Positions 1 through 8,225 of a stretch of 41,930 nucleotides of DNA are shown piece by piece; positions within the stretch are counted from its first letter, which is position 1; each line of letters starts with the position of its first letter. The position numbers and the translations under genes are program-made. The notes beneath the pieces are model-generated. The model ran no database searches, had not been told where the DNA came from, and saw only the letters and a list, made by a program, of their open reading frames with translations. Source of the DNA: Lachnospiraceae bacterium (GTDB lineage Bacteria > Bacillota > Clostridia > Lachnospirales > Lachnospiraceae); contig JAILNN010000095.1 of assembly GCA_024691565.1 (NCBI GenBank), forward strand, positions 1-41,930, written 5' to 3'.

Positions 1-12
1 TGACAAACTATA

Positions 13-135
13 CTCAGTCGGGGTACAAGCTCCGACTGAGTTAAACGCTCCGCGAGGATGCGCACGGATTCGGACAGGAATTTGTCTGCTGAAGCAGACC
101 CGAATCCGGCGCGCAAGACTCGCGAGCGAGTCTTG
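13..135 (+). other. GC-rich region with three consecutive strong stem-loops upstream of the NRPS (candidate structured RNA or repeat element)
   Basis: Stem 13-23/30-40 (CTCAGTCGGGG..CTCCGACTGAG); stem 65-73/100-108 (CGGATTCGG..CCGAATCCG) enclosing 84-89/94-99 (GTCTGC TGAA GCAGAC); stem 114-122/127-135 (CAAGACTCG..CGAGTCTTG). Confidence 0.7.
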
Positions 136-184
136 ACATTATGAAAAATGAAGAAGAAAAATCTATTTTATTAAGGAGGATGCT

Positions 185-3100
185 ATGGGAAAGCAAGATC
201 AGCTTACGGAAGATGAAATTATGAAGTTAGATAGCTTTAATGATACTGTTGAAAGTTATGATGACACACAGACGGTGGTTTCACTCTTTATGAAGGCGGT
301 TAAGGATTATCCAAGAAATACTGCTGTGGTTTTTAAGGAGAATGCCTATACCTATGCTGAACTTAATCGTAGGAGTGATGCAATTACAGCTTACTGTCTT
401 GAAAAAGGACTTGGAAGGGGCGATGTAGTTTCAATTTTGATTCCACGTGGAGAATATGAAGCTATTGCATCTCTGGGTGTTTTGAAGGCGGGATGCGCAT
501 ATCAGCCACTTGACGATTCATATCCTGAGGAAAGACTTAACTTTATGGTTAATGATGCAGGTGCTAAGCTTTTAATTACGACTGAGGAGCTTTCAGGATG
601 TATCACTGATTTTCAGGGTGACAGACTCATGCTTTCAGAAATAAAGGTTGTTGATAAAGCTCTTGAATTACCAGAGGTTAAACCTGAGGATTTATTTATT
701 TTGCTTTATACATCTGGAAGTACGGGTGTTCCAAAGGGAGTTCGCCTGACTCATGGAAATCTTGTTTGTTTTGCGGATTGGTATCATAAGTATTATGGTC
801 TTACAGAAGATGACTGTGTTGGTCAGTATGCGAGTTACGGATTTGATGCATGTATGATGGATATGTATCCTGCACTTACAAGGGGTGCGACACTTTGTAT
901 TATTCCTGAGGAAATTCGTCTAAACTTGAATGAGTTAAATTCATATATGGAGAAGAATCATATTACTCATCAATTTATGACTACACAGGTTGGTCGTCAG
1001 TATGCAATGGAGGCTTCAGAGCCATATTTAAGACATTTATCTGTTGGTGGAGAAAAGCTTGCTACAGTTACACCTCCTACAGATTTTAAATTACATAATG
1101 TATATGGTCCTACAGAGTGTACGATTCTTACAACTGTTTATCAGGTTACTGAAAGGGAAGAAAATATCCCAATCGGTAAGCCTCTTGATAATGTTAAGCT
1201 CTATGTTGTTGATAATGAGGGGAATAGACTTCCTTGTGGGGAAACAGGAGAGCTTTGGATTGCTGGACCTCATGTAGCAGATGGTTATTTAAATCGTCCT
1301 GAAAAGACTGCTGAGGTTTTTATTGATAATCCATTTGATGATGATCCAAAATATAAGAATGTATATCGTTCAGGTGATTTAGTTTATTACAAGGAAGATG
1401 GAACAATTATTTTTGCAGGACGTGCTGATGGACAGGTTAAGATTAGAGGTTTTAGAATTGAGCTTAGTGAAGTAGAAGCAGTTGTTCGTGAGTTTGATGG
1501 TGTTAAGGATGCAACTGTTGTTGCCTTTGATAGTCCATCAGGTGGAAAATATATTGTAGCTTATGTTGTTGGTGATGAGGAAATTGATGTTGAGGCTTTA
1601 AATAGCTTTATTGCAGAGAGAAAGCCTCCATATATGGTTCCTGCTTCAACAATGCAGTTGGATAAGATTCCTTTGACTCAGAATCATAAGGTTGATAAGA
1701 GGTCTCTTCCTGTTCCTGAAGTTAAGACTTTTGATGATGAAGATGATGGAAGAGGAAGGACAGAATGCGAAGAAAAGCTTCTTCCAATGGCGTCAAAAGC
1801 CCTTGGTTTTGATTTTAATTCAGTTTCTGTAGATTTGGTTTCTGCAGGACTTACAAGTATTTCTGCAATTTCTTTTGTAACTAATATTGAAAATGAATTT
1901 GGTGTAGCCCTTTCAGTTAAAGAGTTATTAAGGGGATGCACAATTCTAGATATAGAAAATATGATTTTTAAGGAGCTTATTAATAAGAGTTCTGTTAAGG
2001 CTACAGAAGAGGAGAAAAAAGAACTTAAGAATAGATATCCACTTACACAGACTCAGTTTGGTATTTATTCTGAGTGTATGCTTAATCCTGATTCGACTAT
2101 GTATAATATTCCGTATTCATATAGGATGGATAAGGAAATCGAGGTTAGTAAGCTTGTTTCGGCTGTTTCTAAGGTAATTGATGCACATGGAGCAATTAAG
2201 TGTACGATTTCTGCGGCTGACGATGGTGAGGTTTATCTCTTCCCACATCCTGATAGAAAGCCTGAGATTAAGGTGAAAAAAGGCGGTGAAGTTGATGCTC
2301 TTGCTTACTGGGATGACTTTATTAGACCATTTGATATGGCAAATGGACCTCTTTACAGAGTTTGCGTTTTTGAGACTGAAAGAAGTATTTATTTATATAT
2401 TGATTTCCATCATATTATGTTTGATGGAAGCTCCCTTAATATCTTTATGAGCGATTTGGATAAGGCTCTTAAGGGTGAGGAAATTGAGGCTGAGAAATAT
2501 ACAATTTTTGATGTTTCTGAGGCTGAACAAAAGACTATTAAGGACGGTGGAGAGAAGAGAGCTAAGGATTATTATGATGGTCTTATGCGTGGCTCTAATG
2601 GATGTACTGTTCCTGATGGTGATAGAGACATTAAGGTTGAAATTTGTGGTGAGGCCAATTACCTATGTGAGGGACTTTCTAGCGAAGAGGTCAAGAAGTT
2701 CTGCGAAGAAATTGGCGTTACAGAAAATGCCTTCTTCCTTTCTGCAATGGGATTTGTTCTTCAGAGATATACTGCTGCAGAGGATGTGAGCTTTACAACA
2801 ATTTACAATGGAAGATCTGACCTTAAGACAGAAGGACTATTTGGTATGCTTGTTAAGACGCTTCCTGTTCGTTGTTTCCCAGAGGATGAGAAACTTACTG
2901 TTGACTATGTTAAAGAAACTGCTCGTCAAATCCTCTCTAATATGGCTAATGATATCTATTCATTTGCAAAGATTAGCCGTTCTTCTGGACTTCGTTCAGA
3001 CTTTATGATGGTTTATCAGGGAGATTTGTTTGCCTGGGATAGTCTTGGTGGACATAAGATAGAAACAAAGGTTGGTGCCTCAAATATGGCTATGTCTGAT

Positions 3101-6100
3101 GTTTCTATGGATGTTATTAAGGAAGATGGAAAGTATAGACTTTGCACACAGTATCGCGCAAATAAATATAGTGAGGATTATATTCTTAAACTTAGTGATT
3201 CTCTAGCGACTGCAGCTAAGAGTTTACTTAAGTCTAGTAAACTAAAGGATGTTATTATTTGCTCTGAAAAGGAAGCCGCCGTTATAGATAGTTTTAATAA
3301 TACTGATTATACAGTTGAATTGATGGCAGAGCACAAGTTATTTGAGAATTGGGTTGAGAAGATACCGGAGACTCTTGCTTACATTGGAGCTGGAGAAAGA
3401 ATTAGCTATAGCGAGATGAATAGAAGGGCTAATTGTATTGCTAATGCTCTTATTGATAGGGGAATTGAAAAGGAATCAATTGTTGGACTTGTTTTACCAA
3501 GGACTGCAGCAGTTCCTGTTAGTGAATATGGTGTGTGGAAGGCGGGAGGCGCCTTTTTACCAATGGTTCCTGAGTATCCTGATGATAGAATTGAGTATTG
3601 CTTAGAGGATGCGAACAGCCGTTTTTGTATTACTACGGAGGCAGTTAAAAAGGAGAGGGCTGAGCTTTTCTCTCCGGATAAGCCATATGTAACACTTACT
3701 GTGGAAGAGCTTTTAGAGAGCGGTAAGGAAGATAATCCAAATATAGATGTTGATCCTGAACAGCTTGCATATTGTATTTATACATCTGGTTCAACTGGAA
3801 AACCTAAGGGTGTTATGATTGAACATAGAAATCTATGCAACTTTGTTAATGCAAATGAGAAAAACATGGAAACCTATGAATTTGTGAAGGGCGGAAGTGT
3901 TGCACTTGCCTTAGCTTCGATTTCATTTGATGTTTCAATGATGGAGATGCATATTTCTTTTGCAAATGGTATGACCGTTGTTATGGCTGAAGAGGATGAT
4001 ATTCATGATCCGCTTGCCCTTGCAAGGCTTATTAAGGCTGAAAATGTTCAAGTTATTTGTGCTACACCTTCATTCCTTACAAATATTATTGAATTACCGG
4101 AAGTTAGGGATGCTCTTAAATCTGTTAAGATGTATGATCTTGGAGCGGAAGCCTTTCCTGGTGCGCTTTATGGTAAGATTAGGGAGGTAAGTTCTGAGGC
4201 TTCAATTGTTAATGGATATGGACCTACTGAAACTACAATTAGTTGTATAGCTAAAAAGCTTACTAGTGGTGAAAATATTACAATCGGAAGCCCTGCATCT
4301 AACGTTAAAGCCTATGTTATGGATAGTGCGAGACATCTTTTACCAATGTATGCTAATGGAGAACTTGTTATTGTTGGTAAGGGAGTAGGTAGAGGATATG
4401 TTAACCTACCTGAGAAGACTAAGGATGTTTTCTTTGAATATAATGGTGAGAGAGCATATAGAAGTGGCGATTTGGTTAGATATAATGCTGATGGAGAGAT
4501 TGAGTTCTTTGGAAGATTAGATAACCAGGTTAAGCTTCGTGGTCTTAGAGTTGAGTTAGATGAAATTGAGAATGTTATTAATTCATATTCTGGCGTTAAG
4601 ATGAGTAAGGTCGTTGTTAGGAATAATGGTAAGGAAGATTATCTTGCTGGATTCTTTACAGCTGAAACTGAGGTTTCTCTTGAGGATTTGACTTCTTATC
4701 TTAAATCTAAGCTTACTTACTATATGGTTCCTTCTGTGCTTAGACAGCTTGCAGAAATGCCACTGACAGTTAATGGTAAGATTGATAAGAATCAGCTTCC
4801 TGATATTGAATATACTGGTGAAGATAGACCTTATGTTGAACCTGTTACTGAGCTTGAAAAAGAGCTTTGTGAAGCATATCAGCAGATTTTAAGTGTTGAT
4901 AGAGTAGGAGCAACAGATAGCTTTTTTGAAATCGGTGGAACATCTCTTAGTGCAACGAGAGTTGTTATGTTTGCGATGACAAAGGGATATGAAATTGTTT
5001 ATAAGGATGTATTTACATATCCAAGTCCTCGTGAATTAGCTGCATTTATTACTGGAGAGGTAGTTGAAAATACTTCTGATGATAGTGCTGCTAATCGTAG
5101 TGCATCTGACTATGACTATGGAAAGATTGAAAGTAAACTTAAGATAAATAGCATGTCAAATATTGAGAATGTTACTCGTCGTCCTTTGGGTAATATTATT
5201 CTAACTGGAGCAACTGGTTTCCTTGGAAGTCATATTTTGCATGAATTCCTTGAAAACTATGATGGTAAGGTGTGGTGCCTAATTCGTAAGGGTGGATATG
5301 ATTCCTGTGATATGAGACTAATCACAATTCTTCGTTATTACTTTGAAAAGGGTTATGAAGATTTGTTTGGTACCAGAATATTCTGTGTTGAGGCTGATAT
5401 TACAGATACAAATTCACTTGAACAGTTAGATTCTATTGATGCTGATACAATTATTAACTGTGCTGCCTGTGTTAAGCATTTTGTTCAGGATGATACCTTG
5501 GATAGAATTAATGTTGGTGGTGTTAAGAACTTGATTGAGGTTTGTTTAAGAAGTGGAAAGAGAATAATTCAGATTTCTACGACTTCAATTGCTGAGAATG
5601 GTTCGAAGGAACTCTCTGGAGCGGTTCTTCATGAGAATGAGCTCTATATTGGTCAGGATATGGGTAATGACTATGTTAGAACAAAGTTCCTTGCAGAGAG
5701 AGCTGTGCTTGAAAGTCGCGCTACTAAGGGGTTAGACGGAGTTGTTATTAGAGTTGGCAACCTTATGAGTAGAGCTTCTGACGGTGAGTTCCAGATTAAC
5801 TTTGTAACTAATGGTTACATGCGTTCTCTTAAGGCATATAGAAAATTAAAGATGTTCCCGGCATCGGCACTCGATGAACCACAGGAATTTTCTCCAATTG
5901 ATTCGACTGCAGCAGCGATATTAAAGCTTGCTGAGGATGGTAGTGAGGCCTGTGTTTATCATGCATATAATAATCATTTGATTTCTATGGCTGATGTTAT
6001 TCATGCTATGAGAGATTACGGTTTTGAAATTGAGGTTGTTCCTGATGAAACCTTTGCAAATGCTGTTTCACGTGCGGCTAAAGATCCTGAAATGAGTGAT

Positions 6101-6283
6101 ATTGTGCTTGGTATTGTGGCATATAATAGTAATGATGAGGGTGCTACGGCATATATTGGTCAGGATAATCGTTTTACAACGAATGTGCTTTATCGTTTGA
6201 ATTGGAAGTGGCCGATTACAGATGATGATTACTTGCTAGATTCAATTCGTGCCCTTGATACTTTGGATTTTTTTGAGGAGTAA
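185..6283 (+). CDS. Dimodular nonribosomal peptide synthetase, A-T-C-A-T-R (terminal thioester reductase)
   Basis: 2032 aa; A-domain motifs LYTSGSTGVPKG and IYTSGSTGKPKG, YGPTE in both; carrier motifs GLTSIS (Ser558) and GGTSLS (Ser1587); condensation motif HHIMFDG; C-terminal NAD-binding GATGFLG plus YxxxK (YVRTK); RBS aaggagg upstream. Confidence 0.95.
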   Translation: MGKQDQLTEDEIMKLDSFNDTVESYDDTQTVVSLFMKAVKDYPRNTAVVFKENAYTYAELNRRSDAITAYCLEKGLGRGDVVSILIPRGEYEAIASLGVLKAGCAYQPLDDSYPEERLNFMVNDAGAKLLITTEELSGCITDFQGDRLMLSEIKVVDKALELPEVKPEDLFILLYTSGSTGVPKGVRLTHGNLVCFADWYHKYYGLTEDDCVGQYASYGFDACMMDMYPALTRGATLCIIPEEIRLNLNELNSYMEKNHITHQFMTTQVGRQYAMEASEPYLRHLSVGGEKLATVTPPTDFKLHNVYGPTECTILTTVYQVTEREENIPIGKPLDNVKLYVVDNEGNRLPCGETGELWIAGPHVADGYLNRPEKTAEVFIDNPFDDDPKYKNVYRSGDLVYYKEDGTIIFAGRADGQVKIRGFRIELSEVEAVVREFDGVKDATVVAFDSPSGGKYIVAYVVGDEEIDVEALNSFIAERKPPYMVPASTMQLDKIPLTQNHKVDKRSLPVPEVKTFDDEDDGRGRTECEEKLLPMASKALGFDFNSVSVDLVSAGLTSISAISFVTNIENEFGVALSVKELLRGCTILDIENMIFKELINKSSVKATEEEKKELKNRYPLTQTQFGIYSECMLNPDSTMYNIPYSYRMDKEIEVSKLVSAVSKVIDAHGAIKCTISAADDGEVYLFPHPDRKPEIKVKKGGEVDALAYWDDFIRPFDMANGPLYRVCVFETERSIYLYIDFHHIMFDGSSLNIFMSDLDKALKGEEIEAEKYTIFDVSEAEQKTIKDGGEKRAKDYYDGLMRGSNGCTVPDGDRDIKVEICGEANYLCEGLSSEEVKKFCEEIGVTENAFFLSAMGFVLQRYTAAEDVSFTTIYNGRSDLKTEGLFGMLVKTLPVRCFPEDEKLTVDYVKETARQILSNMANDIYSFAKISRSSGLRSDFMMVYQGDLFAWDSLGGHKIETKVGASNMAMSDVSMDVIKEDGKYRLCTQYRANKYSEDYILKLSDSLATAAKSLLKSSKLKDVIICSEKEAAVIDSFNNTDYTVELMAEHKLFENWVEKIPETLAYIGAGERISYSEMNRRANCIANALIDRGIEKESIVGLVLPRTAAVPVSEYGVWKAGGAFLPMVPEYPDDRIEYCLEDANSRFCITTEAVKKERAELFSPDKPYVTLTVEELLESGKEDNPNIDVDPEQLAYCIYTSGSTGKPKGVMIEHRNLCNFVNANEKNMETYEFVKGGSVALALASISFDVSMMEMHISFANGMTVVMAEEDDIHDPLALARLIKAENVQVICATPSFLTNIIELPEVRDALKSVKMYDLGAEAFPGALYGKIREVSSEASIVNGYGPTETTISCIAKKLTSGENITIGSPASNVKAYVMDSARHLLPMYANGELVIVGKGVGRGYVNLPEKTKDVFFEYNGERAYRSGDLVRYNADGEIEFFGRLDNQVKLRGLRVELDEIENVINSYSGVKMSKVVVRNNGKEDYLAGFFTAETEVSLEDLTSYLKSKLTYYMVPSVLRQLAEMPLTVNGKIDKNQLPDIEYTGEDRPYVEPVTELEKELCEAYQQILSVDRVGATDSFFEIGGTSLSATRVVMFAMTKGYEIVYKDVFTYPSPRELAAFITGEVVENTSDDSAANRSASDYDYGKIESKLKINSMSNIENVTRRPLGNIILTGATGFLGSHILHEFLENYDGKVWCLIRKGGYDSCDMRLITILRYYFEKGYEDLFGTRIFCVEADITDTNSLEQLDSIDADTIINCAACVKHFVQDDTLDRINVGGVKNLIEVCLRSGKRIIQISTTSIAENGSKELSGAVLHENELYIGQDMGNDYVRTKFLAERAVLESRATKGLDGVVIRVGNLMSRASDGEFQINFVTNGYMRSLKAYRKLKMFPASALDEPQEFSPIDSTAAAILKLAEDGSEACVYHAYNNHLISMADVIHAMRDYGFEIEVVPDETFANAVSRAAKDPEMSDIVLGIVAYNSNDEGATAYIGQDNRFTTNVLYRLNWKWPITDDDYLLDSIRALDTLDFFEE

Positions 6284-6289
6284 TTTATT

Positions 6290-8050
6290 ATGCTTAAACG
6301 TAATGAAAAACTAATAAAATCTAAGCTTTGGCAATATTTGATTCCGTCGATTATGACTAATATGGCTTTGCAGATTGGTAATGTTGTGGATACTATCCTG
6401 GTTGGTAATATTCTTGGTGCAAAGGCCATGTCAGCAGTGCAAATTGGTGGCACAATAATGCTACTTATTCAGATTCCAGGTTATATGCTTGGAATTGGCG
6501 GTAGTATTATGGCTGGAAATCGACTGGGTAAGAGAGATGTTAAGGGTGCTAGTAATGTGTTTTCAGCATCCCTTCTTACATCACTTATTGCTGGTATTAT
6601 TTTGATGGCATTAGCTTTCTTTTCGGCGCCGATTTCAGCGTTTTTAACAGGCGGACAGGGGGCACTTACAAAGGATGTTACAGATGTTGTTCGTGTTTCT
6701 TTTTTAGGAACGCCGATTTTAAGTGCCGGTTTAGTTATGATTAACTTTATGGCGGTTGATAATAACCCGTCACTTTCGACAGTATATGTTGTGACGTCTA
6801 ATGTATTAAACTTACTTGCGGATTATTTCTTACTTAAATATACAAAGATTGGTCCAGCAGGTTCTTCACTTTCTACCTTCATTGGTTACGGCGTTGCCCT
6901 GATTGTGGTAATTCTTTATGTACGTTCTTCTAAGAGGATGCTTTCACTTAGGATTAGTTTTGAAGGTCTTAAGGATGCCTTTATTACAGGTGTTCCGGCC
7001 ATGCTTTCAATTGTTTGTGAGATGATTAGAAATTCTGTAATGAATATTATGATTCTTAGACTTATTGGAGATGATGCAGTTGCAATTTACACAATTTGCT
7101 TGAATCTCGTTATGGTTTGTGAACTCTTCCTGGGTGGAATTATTGAAGCCATGAATATGATTGGTGGGGTGGTATATGGAGAAAAAGATTACTTTGGACT
7201 TAGAAGTTTATCTAAGTATATTTTGAGGTATAGCTATACTGTTTTATTTGTTCTTACAATCATTTTAGTAGCATTTACAAGACAGTCAGCGGCAATGTTT
7301 GGAGTTACTGATGCTTCGCTTTTAGATGCGTCAGTTCCTGCGCTTAGGTTATTCTTAATTGCTCTTCCAGGCTATGTATTTAACCGCTTCTTTATTGCAT
7401 ATTATCAGACAACAGAGAAGACTGTTTACTCTAATTTGATTACTATTTTACAATTCTGTGGAGTACTCCTTCCTGCGGTTTTTGCCTTTGTAAAAATTGC
7501 CATTGCTTTAGGATTAAATACCTTAAATGCGGCAATGCTTGGTATGGCAGCTGGAGAGGTCTTTACTGCAATAATTATGGTTATTGTGGTTAATATAACG
7601 AATAAGCGTGCAGGTCTCCTTTGTATTCCTAAGGATGTTAATGAGGATGTTTTAGATATGTCTGTTTCGCCAGATGCTAAAGAAGCTAGTAGAGTTCCAA
7701 GGGAAATCATCGCATTTTGTAAGGATAAGATTGATTCTACACCAGCTACTCAGATTGCGATTGCAGCAGAAGAGATGGCTGTGAATGCTATTACCTATGG
7801 TGGAAATAGCCTATCTAGTATTGATGTAATGCTTTGTATTACAGATGATTCAGTGCTTCTCAGACTTCGTGATAACGGAATTCCATTTGACCCTACAAAC
7901 TATGAATATGATGATAAGAACTATGAATATAGTGGTATTGAGCTGGTTAGAAGGATTACAAATAGGATTACCTATCTTAGAACCTTGGATTTTAATAATA
8001 CGACCTTGGAGATAGATAGAGAAAACCTAAAGGCAGAAGCACAAGCATAA
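6290..8050 (+). CDS. MATE-family efflux transporter with C-terminal RsbW-like HATPase_c_2 domain
   Basis: About 440 aa of multi-TM MATE sequence, then a soluble domain with GHKL-type boxes (EEMAVNAITYGG, DNGIPFDP, YSGIELVRRITNRITYLRT). Starts 6 nt after the NRPS stop, with gaggag RBS inside the NRPS end. Confidence 0.88.
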   Translation: MLKRNEKLIKSKLWQYLIPSIMTNMALQIGNVVDTILVGNILGAKAMSAVQIGGTIMLLIQIPGYMLGIGGSIMAGNRLGKRDVKGASNVFSASLLTSLIAGIILMALAFFSAPISAFLTGGQGALTKDVTDVVRVSFLGTPILSAGLVMINFMAVDNNPSLSTVYVVTSNVLNLLADYFLLKYTKIGPAGSSLSTFIGYGVALIVVILYVRSSKRMLSLRISFEGLKDAFITGVPAMLSIVCEMIRNSVMNIMILRLIGDDAVAIYTICLNLVMVCELFLGGIIEAMNMIGGVVYGEKDYFGLRSLSKYILRYSYTVLFVLTIILVAFTRQSAAMFGVTDASLLDASVPALRLFLIALPGYVFNRFFIAYYQTTEKTVYSNLITILQFCGVLLPAVFAFVKIAIALGLNTLNAAMLGMAAGEVFTAIIMVIVVNITNKRAGLLCIPKDVNEDVLDMSVSPDAKEASRVPREIIAFCKDKIDSTPATQIAIAAEEMAVNAITYGGNSLSSIDVMLCITDDSVLLRLRDNGIPFDPTNYEYDDKNYEYSGIELVRRITNRITYLRTLDFNNTTLEIDRENLKAEAQA

Positions 8051-8087: not shown

Positions 8088-8116
8088 TTGACAAAATAAT
8101 CGCTCATTGATATAAT
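8088..8116 (+). promoter_or_regulatory. Consensus sigma-A promoter TTGACA-N17-TATAAT with TGn extended -10
   Basis: TTGACA 8088-8093, TATAAT 8111-8116, 17-nt spacer, TG at 8108-8109. Confidence 0.8.
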
Positions 8117-8132: not shown

Positions 8133-8225
8133 TGTGAGAGTTATAGCATTTTTTAGATTTAGTTTTTCAGATTTAAATCAATCTAGATGCTTTGAGATAT
8201 GAATTTATGTAAGGAGGGAGTAGTA

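Follow-up and report, generated by a model that had tools for sequence, protein, structure and literature searches.

A MATE exporter with a SpoIIAB-like C-terminal domain: possible output of a partner-switching module in clostridia

Introduction

MATE pumps are commonly viewed as driven by gradients and controlled through transcription, and domains of the RsbW/SpoIIAB type are normally found in sigma-factor regulators. A Lachnospiraceae gene that joins the two, directly downstream of a nonribosomal peptide synthetase (NRPS) gene, raises the question of what such a domain would do at the end of an exporter. The stretch analysed here, hereafter the window, spans the whole of contig C234 (41,930 nucleotides). 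A first-pass annotation made from its sequence alone had guessed that export is linked to STAS partner switching; the observation of the fusion itself was confirmed, the link gained support from fold, motif and neighbourhood evidence, and the overall reading was partly supported. We propose, with a probability of about one half, that the MATE exporter is the output of a partner-switching module, in which a SpoIIE-type phosphatase acts through a STAS protein on the HATPase domain to gate export.

Results

The exporter ends in a SpoIIAB-type domain

The fusion gene, its domains and the gene upstream are as follows.

185..6283, + strand: two-module reductase NRPS, A-T-C-A-T-R, 2032 aa (Pfam and NCBIfam)
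6290..8050, + strand: MATE-HATPase fusion gene, ATG start, 586 aa, full length kept in relatives
6290..7618, + strand: MATE transporter part, residues 1-443 (PF01554 in two stretches)
7619..8047, + strand: HATPase_c_2/SpoIIAB-like domain, residues 444-586 (PF13581, AlphaFold and Foldseek)
7769..7786, + strand: N-box, Glu494-Glu495...Asn499 (profile alignment to SpoIIAB)
7871..7888, + strand: G1 box, Asp528-Asn-Gly530-Ile-Pro-Phe (profile alignment to SpoIIAB)
7928..7936, + strand: G2/ATP-lid motif, Tyr547-Ser548-Gly549, lacking the first Gly of the usual GxG

The NRPS gene ends at 6283 and the ATG of the fusion gene lies at 6290, leaving the 6-nt intergenic gap given in the first-pass annotation. 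The synthetase contains two AMP-binding, two PP-binding, one Condensation and one NAD_binding_4 Pfam domains. Its top NCBIfam match was AusA with 1269 bits, which does not reach the equivalog cut-off of 2500 for aureusimine synthetase, and its product is predicted to be a dipeptide aldehyde or pyrazinone.

The 586-aa protein passed the cut-off of Pfam MatE (PF01554, 9.7e-32, 110.3 bits against 24.9). It shares with MATE transporters of the DinF/NorM type the two MatE repeats and the acidic residue of TM1 (Asp34, invariant across 14 aligned fusions), but differs from them by an additional GHKL domain of ~140 aa and by a TIGR00797 score of 118, under the cut-off of 147. Residues 477-565 matched HATPase_c_2 (PF13581, 3.8e-7, 30.6 bits against a cut-off of 27.4). 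Furthermore, the AlphaFold model of residues 444-586 (mean pLDDT 74, pTM 0.73) adopted a SpoIIAB-type GHKL fold, with the SpoIIAB-SpoIIAA and SpoIIAB-sigmaF crystal structures 1th8, 1til and 1l0o as top Foldseek matches (E 1.5e-7 to 3.4e-7, TM 0.67-0.70), followed by UsfX and RsbW. Both halves of the fusion thus held as first described. In the model of the full-length protein (pLDDT 70), confidence was low at the ATP lid. A phmmer search of the PDB with the single domain gave weak matches (E 0.6-0.9); a profile built from 14 such domains retrieved SpoIIAB at 3.5e-4 and RsbW at 0.004. The domain is expected to lie on the cytoplasmic side of the membrane.

An assembly or frame accident was considered as the source of the fusion and rejected, because the full-length architecture recurs in four other records (58-62% identity) and in many genomes of the same family. 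Directly 3' of the gene, at 8088-8116, we observed a perfect (12/12) TTGACA-17-TATAAT promoter-like site upstream of a 112-aa ORF at 8199.

Residues of the ATP site are largely kept and the lid is altered

In the profile alignment, E495 aligned with the N-box Glu of SpoIIAB and N499 with its N-box Asn. With the tails of L131 and L132, which are not recognisable as HATPases, counted in, E495 was present in 18/20, N499 in 16/20 and the G1 aspartate D528 in 18/20 of the NRPS-linked fusions, and in 23/23, 22/23 and 22/23, respectively, of the others. G530 was kept in 17/20 NRPS-linked fusions and in 6/23 others, 17/23 of the latter having Cys. The first lid glycine was found in none of the 20 NRPS-linked fusions and in one of the 23 others (1/43 in total), against 8/8 comparison HATPases, either SpoIIE-linked or stand-alone; the second, G549, was kept in most fusions.

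Judged from these residues, ATP binding by the domain is plausible. Kinase activity is uncertain and should not be assumed, because the GxG of the lid is altered and the domain at L052 is degenerate, retaining neither the N-box Asn nor the G1 Asp although its STAS neighbour is still in place. The two MATE genes with the unrecognised C-terminal tail of ~136 aa (L131:5863-7563 and L132:10445-12145) lie right before a reductase NRPS gene.

STAS and SpoIIE genes terminate another contig of the same genome

The earlier remark on the lack of a visible STAS partner was accurate for the window and did not hold for the genome. The window begins 184 bp ahead of the NRPS gene, and the orthologues of the STAS and SpoIIE genes found in related clusters sit at the 3' end of a different contig, C126, which explains their absence from the window.

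C126:12633-12923: STAS protein, 96 aa (PF01740, 6.5e-17)
C126:12920-14869: SpoIIE-HATPase membrane protein, 649 aa, its gene overlapping the STAS gene (PF07228, 3.4e-48)
Window 1..83, + strand: 83-base identity to the 3' end of C126, exact overlap

The SpoIIE protein combines a SpoIIE phosphatase domain, in which the PP2C motifs GGDFYD, TDGITDA and FDDMT are present, with an intact HATPase_c_2 domain, and has a HAMP match slightly under the cut-off. Ser54 of the STAS protein aligned with Ser58 of SpoIIAA, a position occupied by Ala in chain 1tid_B, and the aligned serine is also kept by the STAS proteins inspected from related clusters.

The 83-bp overlap was rejected as proof that the two contigs join, because the 83-mer is part of a multi-copy repeat with 13 matching places, which terminates C192 as well and occurs within C163. 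Support for the join came instead from synteny, since L019 has the order SpoIIE-HATPase, NRPS, MATE-HATPase. Furthermore, the C126 proteins are closer to those of the L021 cluster than to their own-genome paralogues (STAS, 64% vs 41% identity; SpoIIE, 40% vs 32-34%, the latter figure covering just the phosphatase part). Together with the repeated 83-mer, and mainly through synteny with L019, L021, L045 and L046, these observations make it probable that C126 adjoins the window in the genome.

The repeat is a structured intergenic element of ~137 bp (window 1-137, fold z-score -8.2) inside which contigs break. Its 13 matching places are on the window, C163, C153, C243, C92, C90, C206, C43, C192, C126 and C58 (G000), and an Rfam scan of the window, repeat included, gave no match.

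Partner-switching genes recur beside MATE-HATPase genes, with and without an NRPS

In clostridia, MATE-HATPase genes recur with STAS, SpoIIE, APH-kinase or RsbW genes whether an NRPS is present or absent. Gene orders are given below in the direction of transcription (MATE-H, MATE-HATPase; SpoIIE-H, SpoIIE-HATPase), first for the clusters with an NRPS.

L019: SpoIIE-H directly before NRPS, MATE-H; contig cut
L021: NRPS, MATE-H, STAS, SpoIIE-H
L045: MATE-H, NRPS, STAS, SpoIIE (truncated where the contig stops)
L046: SpoIIE-H, STAS, NRPS, MATE-H
L048/L055: MATE-H, NRPS, short gene judged by eye to resemble a phosphopantetheinyl transferase, STAS, SpoIIE
L049/L056: STAS, MATE-H, 449-aa gene, NRPS, SpoIIE
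L052: MATE-H, NRPS, STAS
L096: NRPS, STAS, APH kinase, MATE-H
L106: STAS, NRPS, MATE-H

Because gene order varies among these clusters, the association cannot be put down to a single frozen operon. The following loci are NRPS-free.

L178: STAS, SpoIIE, MATE-H, STAS-APH-HATPase protein
L174: MATE-H, STAS-APH
L175-177: MATE-H, SpoIIE, two further genes (one with a weak GNAT match), RsbW-like HATPase; a conserved operon of another clostridial family (L175:6625-11541, L176:6421-11416, L177:6825-11340)
L105: fusion with STAS/SpoIIE genes, plus genes for an ECF sigma factor and for a stand-alone RsbW-like protein
L100 and L179: fusions adjoining STAS/SpoIIE genes

STAS or SpoIIE genes occurred within 6 kb of 8/26 NRPS-free fusions vs 0/32 plain MATEs (Fisher p = 0.0008), a comparison based on non-random sampling, in which L175-177 come from related genomes, leaving at most six independent cases, and in which the plain MATEs derive from one query in one family and several positive loci from other families. 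The link of the MATE-HATPase to partner switching is therefore independent of the NRPS. The remaining 18/26 NRPS-free fusions and many NRPS-linked ones had no STAS/SpoIIE gene in the flank read.

These counts bear on a reading that we consider quite unlikely, namely that the HATPase is a degenerate structural or stability element unrelated to STAS, its clustering with partner-switching genes reflecting shared operon regulation. Most NRPS-free fusions indeed lack a partner nearby, the lid is altered, degenerate copies exist at L052 and L136, and the NRPS-linked MATEs of L131 and L132 have a tail unrecognised as HATPase. However, the Glu, Asn and Asp residues are kept in 80-100% of copies while the whole proteins are down to 19-30% identical, which exceeds the needs of a spacer, and STAS/SpoIIE clustering was absent around plain MATEs.

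APH-family kinase genes directly adjoin MATE-HATPase genes at five loci (L178:11451-13040, L174:8817-10025, L096:5804-6808, L179:11079-12062 and L104:1316-2206); the kinases are fused to STAS twice, once to a HATPase too. They are possibly a second kinase of MATE-HATPase modules.

A proposed STAS-gated exporter and the direction of control

The fold, the motifs and the recurrent STAS/SpoIIE neighbours, with and without an NRPS, lead us to predict a STAS-gated MATE, as do the clusters of L055 and L056, in which no HATPase other than that of the MATE was found. A signal would reach the membrane SpoIIE-type phosphatase, built of an extracytoplasmic sensor, HAMP and PP2C parts and here also its own HATPase, which would set the phosphorylation state of Ser54 in the small STAS protein. 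This protein would then dock on the C-terminal HATPase of the MATE, as SpoIIAA does on SpoIIAB, the domain serving either as its kinase or as its receptor, and docking would gate export of the NRPS product, the presumed cargo. We suggest more tentatively, at somewhat less than even odds, that the STAS phospho-cycle gates the MATE directly through its built-in RsbW-like domain without the participation of a sigma factor; export would then be switched post-translationally.

Control could also run in the opposite direction, which we regard as fairly unlikely. The MATE-HATPase would then be the sensor (a transceptor), substrate load or membrane energy altering the kinase activity of its HATPase on STAS, and phospho-STAS would inform another target, either an anti-sigma/sigma pair or the NRPS. 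Such a role is consistent with the SpoIIAB-type Glu, Asn and Asp residues being largely kept, and with the clusters of L055 and L056, whose SpoIIE proteins are without HATPase, so that the MATE domain is the sole HATPase found and the only kinase candidate there. The ECF sigma and stand-alone RsbW-like genes of the L105 cluster also fit. It is less easily reconciled with the altered GxG of the lid, with the intact HATPase that the SpoIIE protein of the window genome already carries, and with the NRPS clusters read, which yielded neither a sigma nor an anti-sigma gene.

This last observation also argues against an ordinary sigma-factor partner switch acting on transcription of the cluster, with the MATE domain incidental, a possibility that we find very unlikely. 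Such a switch would account for the SpoIIE genes that accompany reductase NRPSs without a MATE at L138 and L139, loci at which the switch could act on the NRPS pathway in some other way. Yet NRPS-free fusions still adjoin STAS/SpoIIE genes, and the HATPase belongs to the transporter polypeptide itself.

Relation to known systems

The predicted STAS-gated MATE shares with the SpoIIAB-SpoIIAA-SpoIIE and RsbW-RsbV-RsbU systems a STAS protein with an aligned phospho-serine, a PP2C/SpoIIE phosphatase and a SpoIIAB-type HATPase fold. In contrast to these systems, the HATPase here forms the tail of a membrane exporter and its lid is missing the first glycine, and the NRPS clusters yielded no sigma factor. 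The NRPS resembles AusA (aureusimine/phevalin) and the gut reductase NRPSs (ruminopeptin, dipeptide aldehydes) in its A-T-C-A-T-R organisation with a terminal reductase, but its cluster holds MATE-HATPase and STAS/SpoIIE genes, for which we found no description in the literature searched. The gut and rumen reductase NRPSs considered here are kin of the makers of protease-inhibiting dipeptide aldehydes, and the NRPS link, if true, would make the timing and route by which these compounds leave the cell directly testable.

Non-sigma outputs of partner switching have been described: BtrU/BtrW act on secretion, and SypA is an output whose target is not known (PMC8256260). The SypE-SypA and Btr systems have in common with the present one a HATPase, a PP2C phosphatase and a STAS protein with a non-sigma or unknown output, and differ in that the HATPase is not carried by a transporter. 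A further precedent is MlaB, a STAS protein that binds the ATPase of an ABC transporter and stabilises it (PMC7367683), and thus also acts on a transport complex; MlaB-MlaF differs in that the transporter is of the ABC type, its ATPase being an ABC ATPase and not a GHKL domain, and the abstract of that paper describes no PP2C/kinase cycle.

The literature searched, which omits many subscription papers, contained no description of a MATE-HATPase fusion or of a MATE-NRPS-STAS cluster. The parts are known, and the wiring of MATE-HATPase, STAS and SpoIIE appears to be new. If the proposed module is real, it would add a post-translational layer of control to MATEs and a transporter output to partner switching, and the extracytoplasmic domain of the SpoIIE protein would be the predicted sensor of the trigger.

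Most NRPS-linked fusions fall in one subclade

The first-pass annotation had coupled the fusion to the NRPS, and the search for further fusions and their co-occurrence with reductase NRPSs upheld this strongly from the NRPS side and partially from the MATE side. Among 250 family genomes we found 22 reductase-domain places. Sixteen had E < 1e-80, and 12 of these have an adjacent MATE-HATPase gene (one degenerate); the other four comprise two with a MATE bearing a different tail and two on contigs cut nearby. No MATE match accompanied the six more distant reductases.

From the MATE side, a C174-type query matched in 19/200 family genomes at E < 1e-30, and fusions also occur outside the family. 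An NRPS domain was absent within 12 kb of 26/53 fusions in a sample that was not random, and the reading of the fusion as an NRPS-specific accessory was rejected on this count. The window genome has two further fusions, with no reductase NRPS or STAS gene nearby.

C174:5920-7680 (L024): MATE-HATPase fusion
C38 (L025:7037-8812): MATE-HATPase fusion

In a tree of the transporter part, 17/21 NRPS-labelled fusions fell in one clade of 18 rows (99/97), L022 being labelled by kinship rather than by observed neighbours since its contig starts in the MATE gene; the NRPS-labelled L096, L129 and the L131/L132 pair fell outside this clade. The MATE-HATPase fusion is thus a broad clostridial family, and the NRPS link is mainly that of one subclade.

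At the reductase NRPS loci with a SpoIIE gene and no MATE match nearby (L138:11227-12801 and L139:11760-13615), L139 also holds a stand-alone RsbW-like HATPase. The C174 fusion is followed by a gene for a 1282-aa protein that combines alpha/beta-hydrolase and AMP-binding domains.
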